From: Macrotrachela quadricornifera | Taxonomy: Eukaryota; Rotifera; Eurotatoria; Philodinida; Philodinidae | Assembly (NCBI GenBank): GCA_022393335.1 | Contig: JAJEKB010001367.1 | Coordinates: 100,482-164,481 of the forward strand | Length of the DNA: 64,000 nucleotides | Direction of reading: 5' to 3' | In this document: positions 22,516-44,084 of the stretch, piece after piece | How the letters are laid out: every line of letters starts with the position of its first letter | Numbering within the stretch: the first letter of the stretch is position 1 | Program-made: the position numbers and the translations under genes | Notes under the pieces: generated by a model | Database searches by the model: none | Told to the model about the DNA's origin: nothing | Seen by the model: only the letters and a program-made list of their open reading frames with translations

Positions 22516-24347
22516 TTACTGTCTTACTCCCTCTATGATGTTGCCGAATTTCGTTGTTTTTTTAGTAATGAGGTTCTTAATCATCTGTGATGTTTGGTAT
22601 AACGCAGATGTCCATTGTTTGTCTATTTCAATATAATAATTTATGAATTTATTAGCTTTAGAATAAATTGCTTCTTTAATTCTTCTTTTCTTCCAATTAA
22701 TTTCATTACCAATAGTAAAGGTCTTTTTAGTATCGAACATACATTGCAGTTTTTGTGTATGAAAATGTTGAACTATTTCAGAATTTCAATTTTTATGGTC
22801 CTCTTGAATTTTTCGCTAGTATTAATTTATTCTGTTCTGTAAGCCAATCTTAGTCTCACCATTGTATATGGCTCCACAATTACATTCTAGTTGGTAAATA
22901 TTTGGTCTCAATTTTGATTTGCTTAACTGAGTGCATGATGATTGTATCTTATTCTTATAAGAGAAGTAAATGTTTATTCTGTATTTCTCCAATTTTCTTC
23001 TTAAGGTTTCAATTTCAGGAACGTAAGGTAAATAAATCGAATATTCCATTTTAATTTTATCATTTTATTGTTCTAGATTTGATGTATTAGGTGATTTTTT
23101 TACTGTTTTTTGAATTTGTCTTTTGATTTCAAATGATGGAAATTTCGAATTTTTCAATATGTGCTCTACTGTGTTTGTTTATGGTTTGAATAATTCTACT
23201 TGTCATATTGTTTATAGTATTCTGCTTAATGATCTTATGATGACAAGAATGGTAATTAAGTAAACGATCTGAAGCTGTTGCTTTTCTGATCCATCGAATG
23301 CTTATATTTTTATTGTCTCTTCTCGATAAGGTAAATATCAAAGAAATTGATTTTTTCGGATCTTTCATATTCACAAGTAAATCTGATTTTACTTTCTATA
23401 GAATTTAATTGTTGTAAATATTTTTCAATGTCATTCTTATTCGTTTTGGTGATCAATATCATATCATCAAAATATCTTCACAATTTGGACGGTAAGTTGA
23501 TTTCCCTCATATGTGTTTGCATACACTCATTCATGTAAATATCTGCAAGTATTGGGGATAGAGGATTTCCAGTAGGAAGCTCTTGTTTTTGTCCATAGAA
23601 TTTTCCATTGAAGGTGAAGAAGCTTTTGTTTAATGTTATTAATAATAGTTTTCTCGGGTCTTTCTTTGTTAATGATGATGCACAGAAATTTTTCACATCA
23701 AGACTTGCTAGTCTTTCATCAGGATGTGTCTTTATTTCAACTATTTCTTCTAGGAATTTTGATATATTTGATACAATGTTGGTAATGATATTCCTAGCAC
23801 AAGTGATAATACGCATCGAACTACTTTGTTTATGAATTGTAGGTTGTCATCGTACTGTTGATAAATCATCAATTGAGATCAATTCATATTTTGTTGTCTG
23901 AATTATTTTATTCGTTTGAAATAATTTATTAGTTAACTCGGCGATTTTCTTTTTTATATTTTTGGTCGGATCTTTGACTACTTTTTTATACGTATTAGAG
24001 ACATTCAGCTTCTCTACTATTTTCTGGATATAATCATTGCGATTCGTAATAACTGTTTTTCCACCCTTATCTGCTGAAACTACGATAATACTTTTCATTC
24101 TTTTCAATTCTTGTAATGCTTGCCTTTCATCTTTGATTAAGTTCTCTTGTTTTCTTTTTCTTAATTTTAAAATAAAGATGGAAATCTCGGAAATGGCAGC
24201 TTGTCTTATATGTTTTGGAGAAGAACTCATAAAATTTTCGGTGTTTGTGATGGTTTCTATGACATCGATTGATTTCGACATGATTACAAATTTTGAACCT
24301 CTTTCTAATACTTGTTTCTGAGTTTTGGTCAACTGTATATCTGACAT
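22516..24347 (-). pseudogene. Penelope reverse transcriptase / GIY-YIG endonuclease remnant
   Basis: In minus-strand order: an N-terminal block with IVVSADKGGKTVI (24347-23847), typical of Penelope RT; an in-frame TGA; palm and finger motifs with LPTGNPLSPILADIYMNE (to 23478); a second TGA directly before RYFDDMILI, the catalytic Y/F-x-DD motif; then a frame change; RKATASDRLLNYHS (23374-23129); and last a block (23049-22822) with YQLECNCGAIYNGETKIGLQNRI, the GIY-YIG-like endonuclease, its first tyrosine signature altered. The breaks rule out a functional protein. Confidence 0.85.
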
Positions 24348-24846
24348 GTTAACTATATTTGATGTATCATTCGTTCTTTCTGATTCTATGTTAAGCTGTT
24401 GTCTGAATTAATTCATTTATCTTCTTCTTATGATTTTTGATAATTTTATCTCTAATATTCTTGTCATTGTTGTTTATCTAAGCAAAATTTTGTTCAAGAT
24501 TTTTTTCCTGATTATATTTCATCCTATATATTTGTAATATCTTCTCCTATGTAATGATATCTACAATATGTAATCTCAGATTCCTGTACATTGATTCAAG
24601 GATATTATTTCGTATTTCAATCATTGTACCATTAAGAAGTCGTTGATTTTTTGTTTATCATTGTGACATTCTTTAAATGCATTCCTTATGAAATAAGATT
24701 AATTCTCTTGCAGTTGTTCAAGAATAAAATATGTTGTTCAATACTCATTTTTTTTTATATAATTATTCTAATTTTCGAGGAATTGTTGTACTTGTCTCTT
24801 CGTAGAGGTTGTTAAATATGATTTATTAAGGAAAGGTATTTTTATT

Positions 24847-36929: not shown

Positions 36930-39900
36930 ATGAACACAATCACTATTGTTTTACCTGATTTAATCACTACTTGTCCATTCAAACTTGAATGTAATCGAGA
37001 GTACGAATCGGTATCAGCTGAGACGGATGCTTGGCTCCGCTCTCATGGTATTCCGCATGACGAATCGACAAGCAAGTACAGTCTTTTGTCGGCACTTTCC
37101 ATTCCACGCTGTAGTCGAGCTAGATTGCGCGATATGTGTGACATTTGGACCTTACTTTTCTTGGTCGATGACGTTACAGACAGTGTTACTATCACGGAAG
37201 GTGATGATCAATTCAAACGACATTTATATAAAAACGTGAGCGAATGTTTGCAACCATCCGGTCTGTTCAAACCACTAACGCCGTTCGCTTCCGCACTTCA
37301 TGAATGGTGGCAGCGAATTCTTGTCAATATTACAAGTGGTTGTAAAGAGCGTGTTATCACTGCCTACCGAGCTGCCAGTGAAACAACTTTTCTTCAAATC
37401 TCTGATGAAAAGAATTCTGAAACTATTCCCGATTTAGAAACATTTATTGAGCTTCGTCGAAATACTGGCCATGCGCGGGTAGTGTTTCCCTTAATTGAAT
37501 ACAGTCTCGAGCTCGACTTACTTGATGAGTGCTGGGCAGACAAGACGTTCAATTGTCTTAATGATTATATGATCGATGCCTCCATTTGGACCAATGTAAG
37601 TAAATATACTCAAAGAAATTTATTTTTGCACACGACGATTCCACAATACTAAGAGGTGTCTAAATAATCAAGAATATCGAGCCACTAGATTATTGAGAAG
37701 CTGAGATCCACACCATAAATAGCATATCAATGCTAGTCTAGTTTATTTTTCAAGAAATGAAGTGTAGAAAATTTAGGCTTACCATGAAGTTTGAAACTAT
37801 TTTCAATGTCGTTTTCAAAGCCTTTTACATGCGATAAAATGTTCGAAAATATTATCGAAATTCTAAAAAATGGAACTAACTCAGCTTTTCATTTCTGAAG
37901 GCCGTATATCATATCGAGTCAGTCTTGTGATCAAGCTGACATCATCTTTTTATTGCAACATTTAGCATTGAAAAGTTTTGGTGTAATTGAAATCCGGAAA
38001 ACATTTCATACTGTTGACGAATGGGAGTTATTTAACATTTGAATATTTAATAAAGAAATTTAAAGCATAAAAAAATGGTTTGAAAAATGTTTTTTGTGAA
38101 ATATTCAACAAAGAAACACAATTGAATGTACTTATTCAAAAAAAATTTTTAAAAGTTCTTAATAGAGATTTTGATAAATATTATAGATTTTAATATTTCA
38201 GTTTCTTTTGTTCAGGTTTGTGAAAAAGAAAAACACACGTTTTCATAGATAAACATAGCGTAGCTGTGATTCACATCGTTTTTATCATTCTTGTCACAGT
38301 TATAAAAAATGATGAATCGTTTCACAACAGGATCGTAGACAATATGCAAGATTTTGTATGAAAAAGCTGAGTATCTCTCATAAATAACAATACTATACTA
38401 GTGTTTCTACCTACTTATCTCTCTGATTGATAATTTTCTTGTTCACGACCACTTTTAGTAGAACCGATTTTCTTCATTTGTCGAGTATACTTCTTTTCTT
38501 CTCAATATACAGTTGTTTTGCAGCTATTTGCAGCAACAAGTATTTAATATTCTGTTTAACTTTGACAATAAAATTCTGCAAAAACATCAATCTTTCTATC
38601 AAAATCATACATATTTTTAATCAATTTTGTAGTCATGTCTCTTATATTGTTTTTGTGACAGTTTTGTTAACAAAAAAACTTTCATTTACATCTCACCAAA
38701 GAAGAAGAAGATAAATAGTGATCAATTAGAGAGACACAATTAGATTGAAACATAAGTGTACTATTTTTATTTGGAATATGAAGTCGGCTCCTTCATAGCA
38801 TATGCTTGTACATTGTCTACGATTCTATTGTGAAAAAATTCATCATTTTTGCAACTCTTACAACATCGACAAAAGCTATTTGAATCACAACAACACTGTT
38901 TATGTATGAAAAAGTGCATTTTCTTTTCTTGTTAGATTTGAACGAGAGAAGCTGAGATATAAAAACTTGTAATTTTCACCAAATTTTCTATCAAGATAAA
39001 ATATTCCTAAAATTGTTTCCAAAGGACACGCTCTACTATGTTTCCGTATCAGATCGATGGCTAGGATTAATGAGCGAACAGTTAATAATCTCTTCTTTTC
39101 ATTAGGACATTTATTCGTTCAACATTGAACAATCACGAGGCTCCCATCATAACATCGTCTCAGTACTCTTGAATGCTGATCCATCGTTGACCATTCAACA
39201 AGCTATGGATCGAGCTGGCCAGATGGTTATTGATCGTTACGTTGACTTTGAACGTGTTCGAGGTGAGTTACGCACATGGAATACTAAAATTGATGCGCAA
39301 GTACAACAATATATGGACGGTTTGGCTACTATGATTATGGGCCACGCGGTCTGGAGCTTTGAAACACCGAGATACTTTGGAGCACATAAAGAAGAAGTGA
39401 AAAAAACGAGATGCATCACGTTATTAGCACACGAAGAAAAGATGCAAGGAAGTATTACTGATTATACAAATGAGCAGAAGGTAAACAAAAAAATCATTTT
39501 CATTTGTAAAATACAATCACTTCAAATTTATTAGATAGATTCAATTGGAAGCAAAGCTGCAACTGTCTTCTCACAACAGGATCTTTGTCAAGGTTAAAAT
39601 ATCCACAAAAATATTATAATTAGTTGATAAAGGAGAGCGATATTTAAGTAAAAGTCAGTCTATGTTTAACTTCTAAATCGAGAAATTTCTTTGAAAAAAA
39701 CGAAGGATAAAAATAATCAATGATTTGTCATCGTATTTAAACATCTTCATTATTCAAAATCAAAAAAATCTTCTTCTACTCCAATAAGAAAAGAAAGAAC
39801 GAAACAAATAAATTAGATATTAGGTGTCACATTTAATATAGGTTCTAATTTCAGAATATCGAACTTATAGTTCTTAATAGAAGTCGTAAGTTACATTTTG

Positions 39901-42717
39901 AGGCATGTATTATAGAAGATAGTTAATAGCACCCTCGCCTAAGAATGCGAAACATAATCTGAACGAAAAGATGTCTCTGATAGCTGTCGAAAATACCTTG
40001 TGTGTTCAATATTTAAAATAATTCTTGTTCAAAACATTTGTTACACTTTATTTCAGACGCAAACTCTCACACTTGCTATGAATATGCTGCAAATCGTGTC
40101 TAAAATAGTTTCATCTCGAGAAACATTTCTATATAAAGTTTTCTTCAAAAAAATATCGGAATATTCATGTAATGTTTTAAGATAAAGATTTATTAGTTAG
40201 TAGGATTGACAGACATTGACTGCAAATGACTTGTGTTAATAATAAAAATGAATTTTTATCCATCTTGTACTATTTTATTGTTTCAGATGGAACGACTTCC
40301 AATAATAACTCGAATTTTAAACACATGGTTTGAAGAATTTTCTGCAACAATAACTAAATATATATATTTTTCTCCAGACCGAGATTTTGCAACCATTTCA
40401 ATACTTGAAATCTTTGCCCAGCAAAAAAGTTCGATCAAAATTGATGAATGCATTCAACTATTGGTTCAAAACACCTAAAGAGAAATTGATCATAATTGAC
40501 GAAGTTATTGACCGACTTCAAAATGCAAGTTTGCTAATTGATGACATTGAAGATAATTCTGTAATGAGACGAGGTGCACCAACCGCTCACATGGTATACG
40601 GTGTTCCCTTAACAATCAATACGGCCGAATTAATTTGCTTTCTCGCTATACAAAAAGCTTTCACACTCGATGATCCACATGTAGGACGTATTATAATTGG
40701 TAAGACTTTTCATTTTTATCCTCATTGATAGAGAAATTACTCGTATAACATATGAATCCATTTTTTCAATAAAAGATATCGTTTGTAAGAAGTATTGAAG
40801 TTTCAAAACCAAAACATTTATCTTTAATTTTTCAAAGTTATTTTTCGTCATTTTGGTCGAAAGAATTATTTAAAAATTTTATAAACAATGCGTATTATTT
40901 TGGGATTTTATGCTCATATGATATGAGCCTAGACCTCCATGGAATTAGATTGCTAAGTGAAGAAGTAAAGTTTTCAGCCCAAACCTATTAACAGTTGAGA
41001 GTCGTATATCAAGCATGGATGATCATTGATTCGAAGTCATATAATAATCTTCGATAAAATATTATTTGAAAAAGTAAGTTGTAGGAAATGCAAAACTTGA
41101 GCAGTTCTTCTTTTTCGATGATTTATATGTAGTTGAATACAGCTTACAAAACTATTTAAGAAAATATAGTTTTAAAAGATTTTCTCTTACTTCTCCTGGA
41201 AAAAAATTACAATACTACGATAATATTATTATATAAGAAAATGATGTCGTTTTATATGACATTGAGTAACTTTGTTTTTATTCAATTCTAATAATTCTCA
41301 AATTAATTCTTTCTTAATCACCATATAAAACTGATTACAAGCTATTGTATCTTATGAACTTATGTAGTATTTTAAGAAGATATAAATTCAAATAACTTTT
41401 TACCTCCAATGGCTAATATAATAGCCATTTATAGGTAGATTACAAAAGCTAAATGACGTATAGAATTCGAAAACCTTTAAAACATATTTTATAGTAAACT
41501 CCATAGGCTGTCGTTTCGTAAAAAAAAGAACATTTTGTTTCACCTTTTCATCTCTGAAATCGAACAATATATAAATCGTTGGAAAATAAAAAATGCTCAA
41601 GTTCTGCACTTCCTGCACCTCACATTAATACATTCTACCATTTTTTAAACTTATATTCCTTCTCAATAATTATTGGTTTAAAAGCTTTAGTGCAAGCTTG
41701 TAAAGAATAGAGCGCGAAAGCGTTTAGTATAAAGTTTAAATCTGACTATTACACAATCAACAATCTTATCTGTCGAATTATGAGAAGAATCTTATTCCTG
41801 GAGCACTAGTATTAGATTTTTTATATCTTCCAGGATTCAAACCGAAAATATAAAGACTATGTAGTTTTGTAAAGAAGTCTACGAAATTGTTTAAAAGAAT
41901 AGCAGTAATATTTAAATATTAACGAAAACCTCATCAACTAAGTCTTCATTGAGCTTTTTATTAATAAAATGAATTGATGAGATGAAGTACTCATATGAGA
42001 AGTAATCAACTCATCATTTGACTAGATCTTATCATAAAAAGGTTTAATTTATATTAGTTTAGCACCAGTACTAATTTGAGCTGTCAGTTACATTAACTTC
42101 TACTCAATCGATCCCTCATATTTATCAATTTAGACCGCCTCGTTGAAATGCACAAAGGTCAAGGATGTGATATTTGGTGGCGTGACAATTATTTTTGTCC
42201 ATCAGAAGAGGAGTATCGTCAAATGATAATCAAAAAATGTGGTGGACTTTTTCAATTGATTGTGGAACTCTTAAGACTCTTTTCACCGATGAAGTTTGAT
42301 GACGAAAAAAACAAGTTGATTGATGATTTGTGGCAGACTCTCACGTTACTCTGTCAAATTCGTGATGATTATTGCAACTTGATTTCGGATGAATATACTC
42401 GAGATAAATCTTACTGTGATGATTTGAGTGAAGGGAAATTCTCATTTCCGATCATTCACGCTTTGAACACTCATCCAAACGATACTCGACTCAGTGACAT
42501 TCTCAAAAAGCGTACAAACGATATGGATCTTAAACGGCAGGCCATCGATTTGCTGCATCAATTTGGCTCGATAGAATATACGCGGAACACATGTCTCAAA
42601 CTGGCAGACGAATGTTATGCACTTACGAATAAACTCGAAGGCAATCTCGACCTAACAATGATTATCTGCTGGATGATGGTTGTTTTTCATGTTCCTACTC
42701 AAGATAAACTCGAATGA
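36930..42717 (+). CDS. Fused terpene cyclase / GGPP-synthase-type prenyltransferase
   Basis: A bifunctional enzyme: the C-terminal half would make a C20/C25 diphosphate and the N-terminal half would cyclise it. Exons 36930-37595, 39106-39480, 39535-39592, 40287-40327, 40378-40699 and 42134-42717 keep frame throughout; 681 aa. The cyclase half has DDVTD (80-84), the NDxxSxxxE triad (222-230) rebuilt exactly across intron 1, and SFETPRYFG. The linker contains GTTSNNNSNF. The prenyltransferase half has VRSKL, DDIED (435-439), HKGQGCDIWWRD and DDYCN (565-569). This order matches ascomycete chimeras such as fusicoccadiene and ophiobolin synthases. No known animal gene has this architecture to my knowledge. 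Exons are clearly less AT-rich than neighbouring genes. The two small linker exons are the least certain; 40057-40168 fits in place of 39535-39592. Confidence 0.88.
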
Positions 42718-43159: not shown

Positions 43160-44084
43160 CAGGGTGGTCCAAAAATTACCGGACACTATTTGATTGCCAA
43201 TAACTTTTGATAGGAGCAAAATAAAGACTGGCAGTTTTCACTAATCAAAGGAGCAATGGTTGAGCAACAAATACATCTCAAATTCTGCTTGTCAAGTAAT
43301 TGACCGATAGAACAAATTTTTATTGAACATTTTGTAATCAATTTTGTGAACGATATTCTGAAAATATTTTTCATTTTGTTTTTACTTCCAATTTAATCAA
43401 TTAATAGAGAAAATTGTTCTCTTTTCGATCTGATCAAGACTGAACTTTCTAGCGTGTTCCACGCACGACTTATAAGCATTTTCTCGAAAGTATCGAAGTC
43501 GTCCAAATGCCGTCCAACTATTCTAAAATAGATCAAGACAGAGGTAGTGGACCATGCTGAACCGAGCAATGATGTGTAATTTTAGTTCCAAAATGATTTT
43601 ATGTCACAAAATTAGGATCTTCGAAACATTTAATTTATATCCAATATAATGTCAAGATGTCACAATTTCAAAATCTTGATTTAGTGACATAAAATCAATT
43701 TGGAACTAAAACCATACATCACTGCTCGGTTCAGCATGGTCCATCACTTCTATTTTGATCTATTTTAGAATGGTTGGACGGCATTTGGTCGATTTCGACA
43801 CTTTCGAGAAGATGCTTATAACTCTTGAATGGAACATGCTAGAAAGCTTGATCTTGAACAGATCGAAAAGAGAACAATTTTCTCTATTAATTGATTAAAT
43901 TGGAAGTCAAAATAGAATGAAAAATATTTTTAGAATATCGGGCAATTAATTGACAAATAGAGTCAAAAATGTATTATTTGCCTAGACATTGCTCCTTTAA
44001 ATAGCGCAAACTGTAGTTCGCTATCTAGCTCCTGTCAAAATTTATTGGTAACCATTGACTGGCCGGTAACGTTGGATCGCCCTG
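43160..44084. mobile_element. Long foldback element with mariner-like ends
   Basis: Starts CAGGGTGGTCCAAAAATTAC and ends with the reverse complement of CAGGGCGATCCAACGTTAC. The two arms (about 43160-43611 and 43680-44084) pair over more than 400 bp with modest divergence, leaving a loop of about 70 bp. CAGGGTGGTCC-type termini are common in mariner/ITm elements. No transposase open frame is present; open frames inside are by-products of the palindrome. Confidence 0.8.

Follow-up and report, generated by a model that had tools for sequence, protein, structure and literature searches.

How does an animal come to carry a gene laid out like a fungal chimeric terpene synthase? The question is raised by a locus of the bdelloid rotifer Macrotrachela quadricornifera, contained in a window of 64,000 nucleotides (the whole stretch of DNA analysed; contig C897:100482-164481 of a 450 Mb assembly in 5695 contigs). 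The gene joins a class I terpene synthase (TS) to a geranylgeranyl diphosphate synthase (GGPPS). In our reading, to which we give a probability of about 0.7, a class I cyclase of the mushroom type, probably acquired horizontally, was fused to a copy of the host GGPPS, and the product is likely a two-step enzyme that converts its own geranylgeranyl diphosphate (GGPP) to a diterpene.

The fused gene and its genomic setting

The region is a single gene on the forward strand, and its ATG at 36930 and TGA at 42717 are exactly the limits set in the preliminary description. The frame proposed there across six exons also holds: spliced, it comprises 2046 nt and 681 codons without internal stop, and the introns, in order 1510, 54, 694, 50 and 1434 nt long, are GT-AG in all five cases. 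The parts of the gene are as follows.

36930..37595, + strand: exon 1, N-terminal part of the TS, residues 1-222, with DDVTD at 37167-37181; PF19086 matches this exon alone at E 9.4e-19
37596..39105, + strand: intron 1, 1510 nt, phase 0, splitting the NSE motif between N222 and D223
39106..39480, + strand: exon 2, C-terminal part of the TS, residues 223-347, with the remainder of NDIYSFNIE and with RY at 39370-39375
39535..39592, + strand: exon 3, first linker micro-exon, 58 nt (58 nt also in three paralogues), end phase 1
40287..40327, + strand: exon 4, second linker micro-exon, 41 nt (56 nt in the three paralogues), end phase 0
40378..40699, + strand: exon 5, N-terminal part of the GGPPS, with DDIED at 40540-40554
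40700..42133, + strand: intron 5, 1434 nt, phase 1
42134..42717, + strand: exon 6, C-terminal part of the GGPPS and stop, with DDYCN at 42364-42378

The spliced protein matches PF19086 (E 1.3e-34) and PF00348 (E 4.1e-58) on one chain, which bears out the fusion of a class I TS to a GGPPS-like domain. Single open frames gave PF19086 at E 6.9e-07 (39106-39534, containing exon 2) and PF00348 at E 1.6e-24 (40354-40728, containing exon 5) and 7.8e-29 (42097-42714, containing exon 6). The metal-binding motifs, described earlier as intact, were all found (DDVTD, NDIYSFNIE, RY, DDIED and DDYCN), and the histidine of HxGQG is intact as well. The gene model thus has the one-chain layout of the fungal prenyltransferase-terpene synthases (PTTS), an N-terminal class I TS followed by a C-terminal prenyltransferase (PT), and matches their TS motifs DDXXD/E and (N/H)DXX(S/T)XXXE (DDVTD, NDIYSFNIE) and their Asp-rich PT motifs (DDIED, DDYCN). 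The two micro-exons align with the linker of protein P0001 of Adineta steineri, also of 681 aa, and keep the frame. A four-exon model lacking them, in frame and 33 residues short, was replaced after alignment to P0001; this 648-residue version served as the protein query in the homologue searches. Intron 1 contains a 46-nt inverted repeat.

These searches returned 52 matches to the fused protein. The top 12 are all from A. steineri, and 10 of them are labelled with both PF19086 and PF00348. P0001-P0006 are co-linear with 99-100% of the query at 53-62% identity and have an alignable linker; the A. steineri entries possibly stem from more than one isolate and are not gene counts. The single fungal chimera among the matches, P0047, is 26% identical. 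Six entries come from Rotaria (356-386 aa), and all four inspected are GGPPS alone; one of these four, P0015, nevertheless carries a PF19086 label.

A PF19086 search of the M. quadricornifera genome gave 22 matches on 15 contigs, a lower bound. A GGPPS part follows the TS on six of the 15: C897 (the window), C896, C1139, C2477, C4980 and C948. The models on C2477, C4980 and C948 have six exons (675/372/58/56/322/584 nt) with the phases of the window gene and GT-AG introns of 49-1214 nt, and all three have an intron at the site of intron 1. The copy on C1139 is 93-94% identical to the window gene, with an apparent deletion in exon 6 and a stop reported within the TS match. Ratios of nonsynonymous to synonymous substitution (dN/dS; Nei-Gojobori method) between the window gene and the three modelled paralogues were 0.24-0.29 for the TS and 0.17-0.20 for the GGPPS, with dS of about 0.8-1.0; among the three paralogues they ranged from 0.19 to 0.37 over TS and GGPPS and from 0.6 to 1.6 over the linker of 40 codons. 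Both halves are therefore retained by selection, the linker not clearly so. Around the gene, C896 and C897 (207,225 and 206,693 bases) agree at all 8886 bases compared (100%); they represent either identical haplotypes or an assembly duplicate.

That the gene belongs to an animal genome was claimed at the outset, and the surroundings agree. Pfam matches in neighbouring frames fit an animal: an ammonium (Rh-type) transporter, PDZ, ACBP, enoyl-CoA hydratase, TIR, EGF repeats, a cation-transport ATPase and TTC7. The paralogue contigs, of 0.3, 1.1 and 3.9 Mb, are part of the same assembly. Contamination is very unlikely, given these animal-type neighbours, three paralogues on other contigs that share the gene's exons and phases, dN/dS of 0.17-0.37 in both halves, and the co-linear proteins of A. 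steineri.

Origin of the two halves

Animal type III GGPPS are defined by a DDxxD-type motif, DDYxN, HxGQG and EGK. The GGPPS half matches all of these, with the DDxxD-type motif first and DDYxN second, and has the fold of the family. Against solved structures, phmmer scored it at 312 bits with human GGPPS, at 244 bits with the PT domain of a fungal copalyl diphosphate synthase, where that domain is fused to a class II cyclase, and at 210 bits with the best fungal class I chimera. A first tree of 35 rows (30 selected from the 52 matches, the window protein, human GGPPS and three fungal chimeras) was pruned of five long-branch or poorly aligned rows and then of one further near-copy. In the final tree of 34 rows, the 14 fused rotifer rows form one clade (100/100) and the six standalone rotifer rows another (97/96); the two unite at 100/99 within an animal clade (100/99), and four fungal class I chimeras form a separate clade (100/100). 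Constraining the fused rotifer GGPPS to group with the fungal chimeras was 32 log units worse (approximately unbiased test, p-AU 0.00056; 0.00012 in the earlier tree), by which common descent of the PT half with the fungal PTTS, apart from other GGPPS, is rejected. Gene structure adds to this: intron 5 falls after alignment column 152 in phase 1 in all seven genes compared, three standalone GGPPS and four modelled fused genes. The standalone GGPPS genes (C187, C188 and C964) have main segments 69-88% identical to a Rotaria GGPPS and one 18-residue segment at 50%; their first exon has no recognisable counterpart in the GGPPS part of the fused gene. By these sequence comparisons the GGPPS half is the animal's own, a sister of the standalone rotifer GGPPS. 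The preliminary description had counted a closest match to non-fused animal proteins against its proposal. For the GGPPS half, with the fused rotifer proteins set aside, such a match was indeed found in standalone rotifer GGPPS, and it therefore points to a second origin of the layout and not to an ordinary gene.

The TS half leads elsewhere. Its best solved relatives are the mushroom enzymes AcCop4 (E 1e-41, 146 bits) and Copu9 of Coniophora (7ofl; E 7.8e-39), at about 30% identity, whereas the fungal chimeras reach about 25 bits. A structure search with A. steineri P0001 likewise gave Cop4/Copu9-type enzymes as best TS matches. Among named proteins from outside the rotifers, one of the bolete Phlebopus comes closest (31% identity); the unnamed environmental proteins P0061 and P0062 outrank it and fall among the rotifer rows of an earlier TS tree. 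Further matches in a profile search were basidiomycete proteins and unnamed metagenome entries only, a result partly self-made by seeding the profile with four basidiomycete sequences. The TS trees included 18 of the 26 basidiomycete or unnamed matches P0064-P0089, and the final one omits eight rows, from rotifers or unnamed, that were short, partial or divergent. There the basidiomycete rows form their own clade (92/93), as do the TS halves of four fungal chimeras (100/100). In the earlier TS tree, a single clade of all fused TS halves was rejected through the A. steineri rows (p-AU 3e-64); the fused GGPPS halves nonetheless form one clade. We infer that the TS half was probably acquired horizontally from a relative of the mushrooms. 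A bacterial donor is not supported: one relative was met among 55 pattern matches, in Kibdelosporangium, with 34% identity over query residues 154-266, in a scan of prokaryote genomes that relies on motif words and cannot prove absence. A structure search in viral proteins was of no use; its two matches with E up to 0.001 were a terpenoid synthase and a trans-prenyltransferase.

The 'Ascomycete-type' origin first suggested for the gene is contradicted by the GGPPS half, and in sequence scores the TS half, too, stands far from the fungal chimeras. With one half sister to rotifer GGPPS and the other closest to free-standing mushroom sesquiterpene synthases, the gene looks like a second assembly of the fungal layout, made in an animal by joining a resident GGPPS to a cyclase that was probably acquired. 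The standalone TS gene on C5280 encodes 337 residues and has one intron, at the site of intron 1 of the fused gene. A two-exon cyclase gene of this kind may have landed before the GGPPS exons, with two linker micro-exons bridging them.

Predicted chemistry and rival explanations

Judged by their families, the two motif sets point to a reaction in two stages, in which the chain would be elongated to GGPP and this then ionised and cyclised with the help of metal ions. The GGPPS half would bind Mg2+ at DDIED and DDYCN and add isopentenyl diphosphate to farnesyl diphosphate (FPP), and GGPP would get to the cyclase by proximity. There, three Mg2+ held by DDVTD and NDxxSxxxE, together with R and RY, would ionise and cyclise it. 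The GGPPS halves may form a hexamer with the cyclases around it; titles of solved entries name a hexameric prenyltransferase in fungal copalyl diphosphate synthase (8v0f) and a variediene synthase with six cyclases (9e2i). A diterpene would be the simplest product and a sesquiterpene the main alternative. We would guess that the product serves in defence, because bdelloids are reported to deploy acquired biosynthetic genes, namely nonribosomal peptide and polyketide synthase (NRPS/PKS) genes, against a fungal pathogen; the string 'terpen' is absent from the main text of that report (PMC11258130).

Several observations weigh against the reading given above. As to its history, intron 4 of the fused gene is close to the site of the first standalone GGPPS intron without coinciding with it (both phase 0), and the second standalone intron is missing from the fused genes. 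In the TS tree the divergent rotifer cyclases of C5280 and C4631 branch from an open fork; when they are included, the rotifer rows are not one supported clade, and neither a union of rotifer and basidiomycete TS nor one of rotifer and fungal-chimera TS is rejected (p-AU 0.44 each). No fused Rotaria protein occurs among the 52 protein matches, where annotation gaps are possible. As to its chemistry, the window protein is the only one of 10 compared in which Q replaces H just before DDIED and C replaces F before QIRDD, and the C948 copy has lost several conserved GGPPS residues (RCG, MRIGQG); the GGPPS half may therefore be changed or decaying in some copies. Because its relatives in mushrooms are sesquiterpene synthases, the cyclase itself may prefer FPP.

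These last points feed the alternative that survives best, though we consider it unlikely: the fusion is real, the cyclase turns FPP into a sesquiterpene, and the GGPPS half is inactive or has another purpose, e.g. oligomerisation. The nearest solved relatives of the TS half, Copu9 and Cop4, fit it, as do the changes beside DDIED and QIRDD in the window protein and the eroded residues of C948. Nevertheless, the window protein keeps DDIED, DDYCN and the HxGQG histidine, and between the window gene and the paralogues its GGPPS half is the more constrained of the two (dN/dS 0.17-0.20 vs 0.24-0.29).

It is far less probable that two adjacent genes, a standalone TS and a standalone GGPPS, were wrongly joined by prediction. 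The annotation of A. steineri includes proteins with a TS and nothing else, and read-through of intron 2 would likewise yield TS alone. Three of them (P0053, P0055 and P0057) share the end SKQEVERN, at the position of the exon-2 donor in the fused genes; an end like that of read-through means that some of these gene models are probably cut short, the alternative being an intron-retention form that yields a free cyclase. In contrast, the spliced frame has no in-frame stop after the TS, the two linker micro-exons have conserved phases in four genes, the first exon of standalone GGPPS finds no recognisable match in the GGPPS part, and the fused A. steineri proteins align through the linker.

Least credible of all is transfer of the whole fused gene from an ascomycete with a chimeric synthase: domain order, motif types and similar length agree with it, as do the presence of P0047 among the matches and the TS union left standing at p-AU 0.44, but the GGPPS half groups with rotifer GGPPS against the chimera union (p-AU 0.00056), shares the phase-1 intron with the standalone rotifer genes and, unlike P0047, a real chimera that matches a fungal one over both halves (407 bits), belongs to a gene that does not do so.

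Having weighed these alternatives, we retain the fusion of a mushroom-type cyclase with a host GGPPS. With somewhat less assurance we lean towards its wider form, in which bdelloids independently fused a mushroom-derived cyclase to their own GGPPS and so gained a self-sufficient chimeric diterpene synthase, now an old, duplicated animal family that would give cyclic diterpenes of their own.

Other cyclase-like frames occur in the genome. C4631 and C4286 carry related TS with no GGPPS match within the 5-6 kb fetched downstream. Mutually similar frames of about 400 aa lie on C4683, C4640 and C1374 (L020, L022 and L023); that of L022 belongs to the trichodiene-synthase family (PF06330, E 3.1e-14), with longiborneol and trichodiene synthases as nearest solved relatives. 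A P450-like frame stands a few kb from each of the three (PF00067, E 8e-17 for that near L022, the sole one tested), and they are candidates for a second cyclase type next to a P450 in an animal genome. The tandem frames on C4677 (L018 and L019; about 220-525 aa), one of which was tested and matched class I TS weakly (PF19086, E 1e-07), would make up a third cyclase-like family, a divergent one. On C5463, C458, C4095, C146 and C4424 (L029-L033) and on partner contigs, open frames of 494-709 aa have a C-terminal PF00348 domain and are possibly another prenyl-synthase fusion; in L029 the domain spans residues 434-676, and the N-terminal part contains DD, without a Pfam match. In the window, nested inverted repeats directly 3' of the fused gene (43176-44069; 284-nt arms 87% complementary, 134-nt arms 73%) are probably a mobile element. 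Two adjoining frames lie at 23478-24407 on the minus strand, one RVT_1-like (E 5e-05, below the Pfam cut-off) and the second with no significant Pfam match. Penelope-like elements are common in bdelloids.

Comparison with known systems

Class I cyclases are present in other animal genomes, in trombidid mites and octocorals. The mite enzymes are reported as lateral transfers (PMC6275457) and the origin of the octocoral ones is debated (PMC12685057); unlike the rotifer gene, neither is mentioned as fused to a prenyltransferase in the available parts of these two sources. Chimeric genes from horizontal transfer in arthropods resemble our case in that a native animal gene has been joined to acquired sequence (PMC13389597). 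They differ in host, and the main text of that source contains none of the words rotifer, bdelloid, geranyl and isoprenoid, with terpene solely in the title of a reference. Neither an animal TS-prenyltransferase chimera nor a rotifer terpene synthase was met in the literature searched, which largely excludes subscription papers.

Taken separately, each half has counterparts of its own. The sesquiterpene synthases of the Cop4/Copu9 type (AcCop4, 8gr5/8gr7; Copu9, 7ofl) are the best sequence match of the TS half and, via the A. steineri relative, the best structural match, yet the rotifer cyclase is about 30% identical to them and is fused to a GGPPS. Animal type III GGPPS (human GGPS1, Rotaria GGPPS) resemble the GGPPS half in sequence, fold and motifs, and the standalone GGPPS of the same genome share an intron site with the fused gene; the fusion differs from them in that its GGPPS part lacks a recognisable first exon of its own and is preceded by a terpene cyclase.

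As a whole, the gene compares with the fungal PTTS, such as the fusicoccadiene, variediene, stellatatriene and astellifadiene synthases, which produce di- or sesterterpenes and combine an N-terminal class I TS with a C-terminal GGPPS-like PT in about 700 residues and carry the same types of motif (PMC8307374). It departs from them in its animal GGPPS half, in a TS nearer to free-standing mushroom cyclases and in its animal host. The same source describes PTTS as unique to fungi and confined to Dikarya, where among 174 basidiomycete species a single one has them, thus treating the chimera as a fungal invention; animal neighbours, paralogues on several contigs and the A. steineri proteins place the rotifer gene outside that range. 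The kind of enzyme is hence already known, and its second, animal origin is new relative to the literature searched. If true, an animal gene both supplies and cyclises its own isoprenoid precursor, with one part taken from a resident gene and the other from DNA that was probably acquired. Moreover, if the layout did arise a second time from different parts, two unrelated solutions can be compared, so that the reason why it arises, be it channelling, dosing or assembly, becomes testable.

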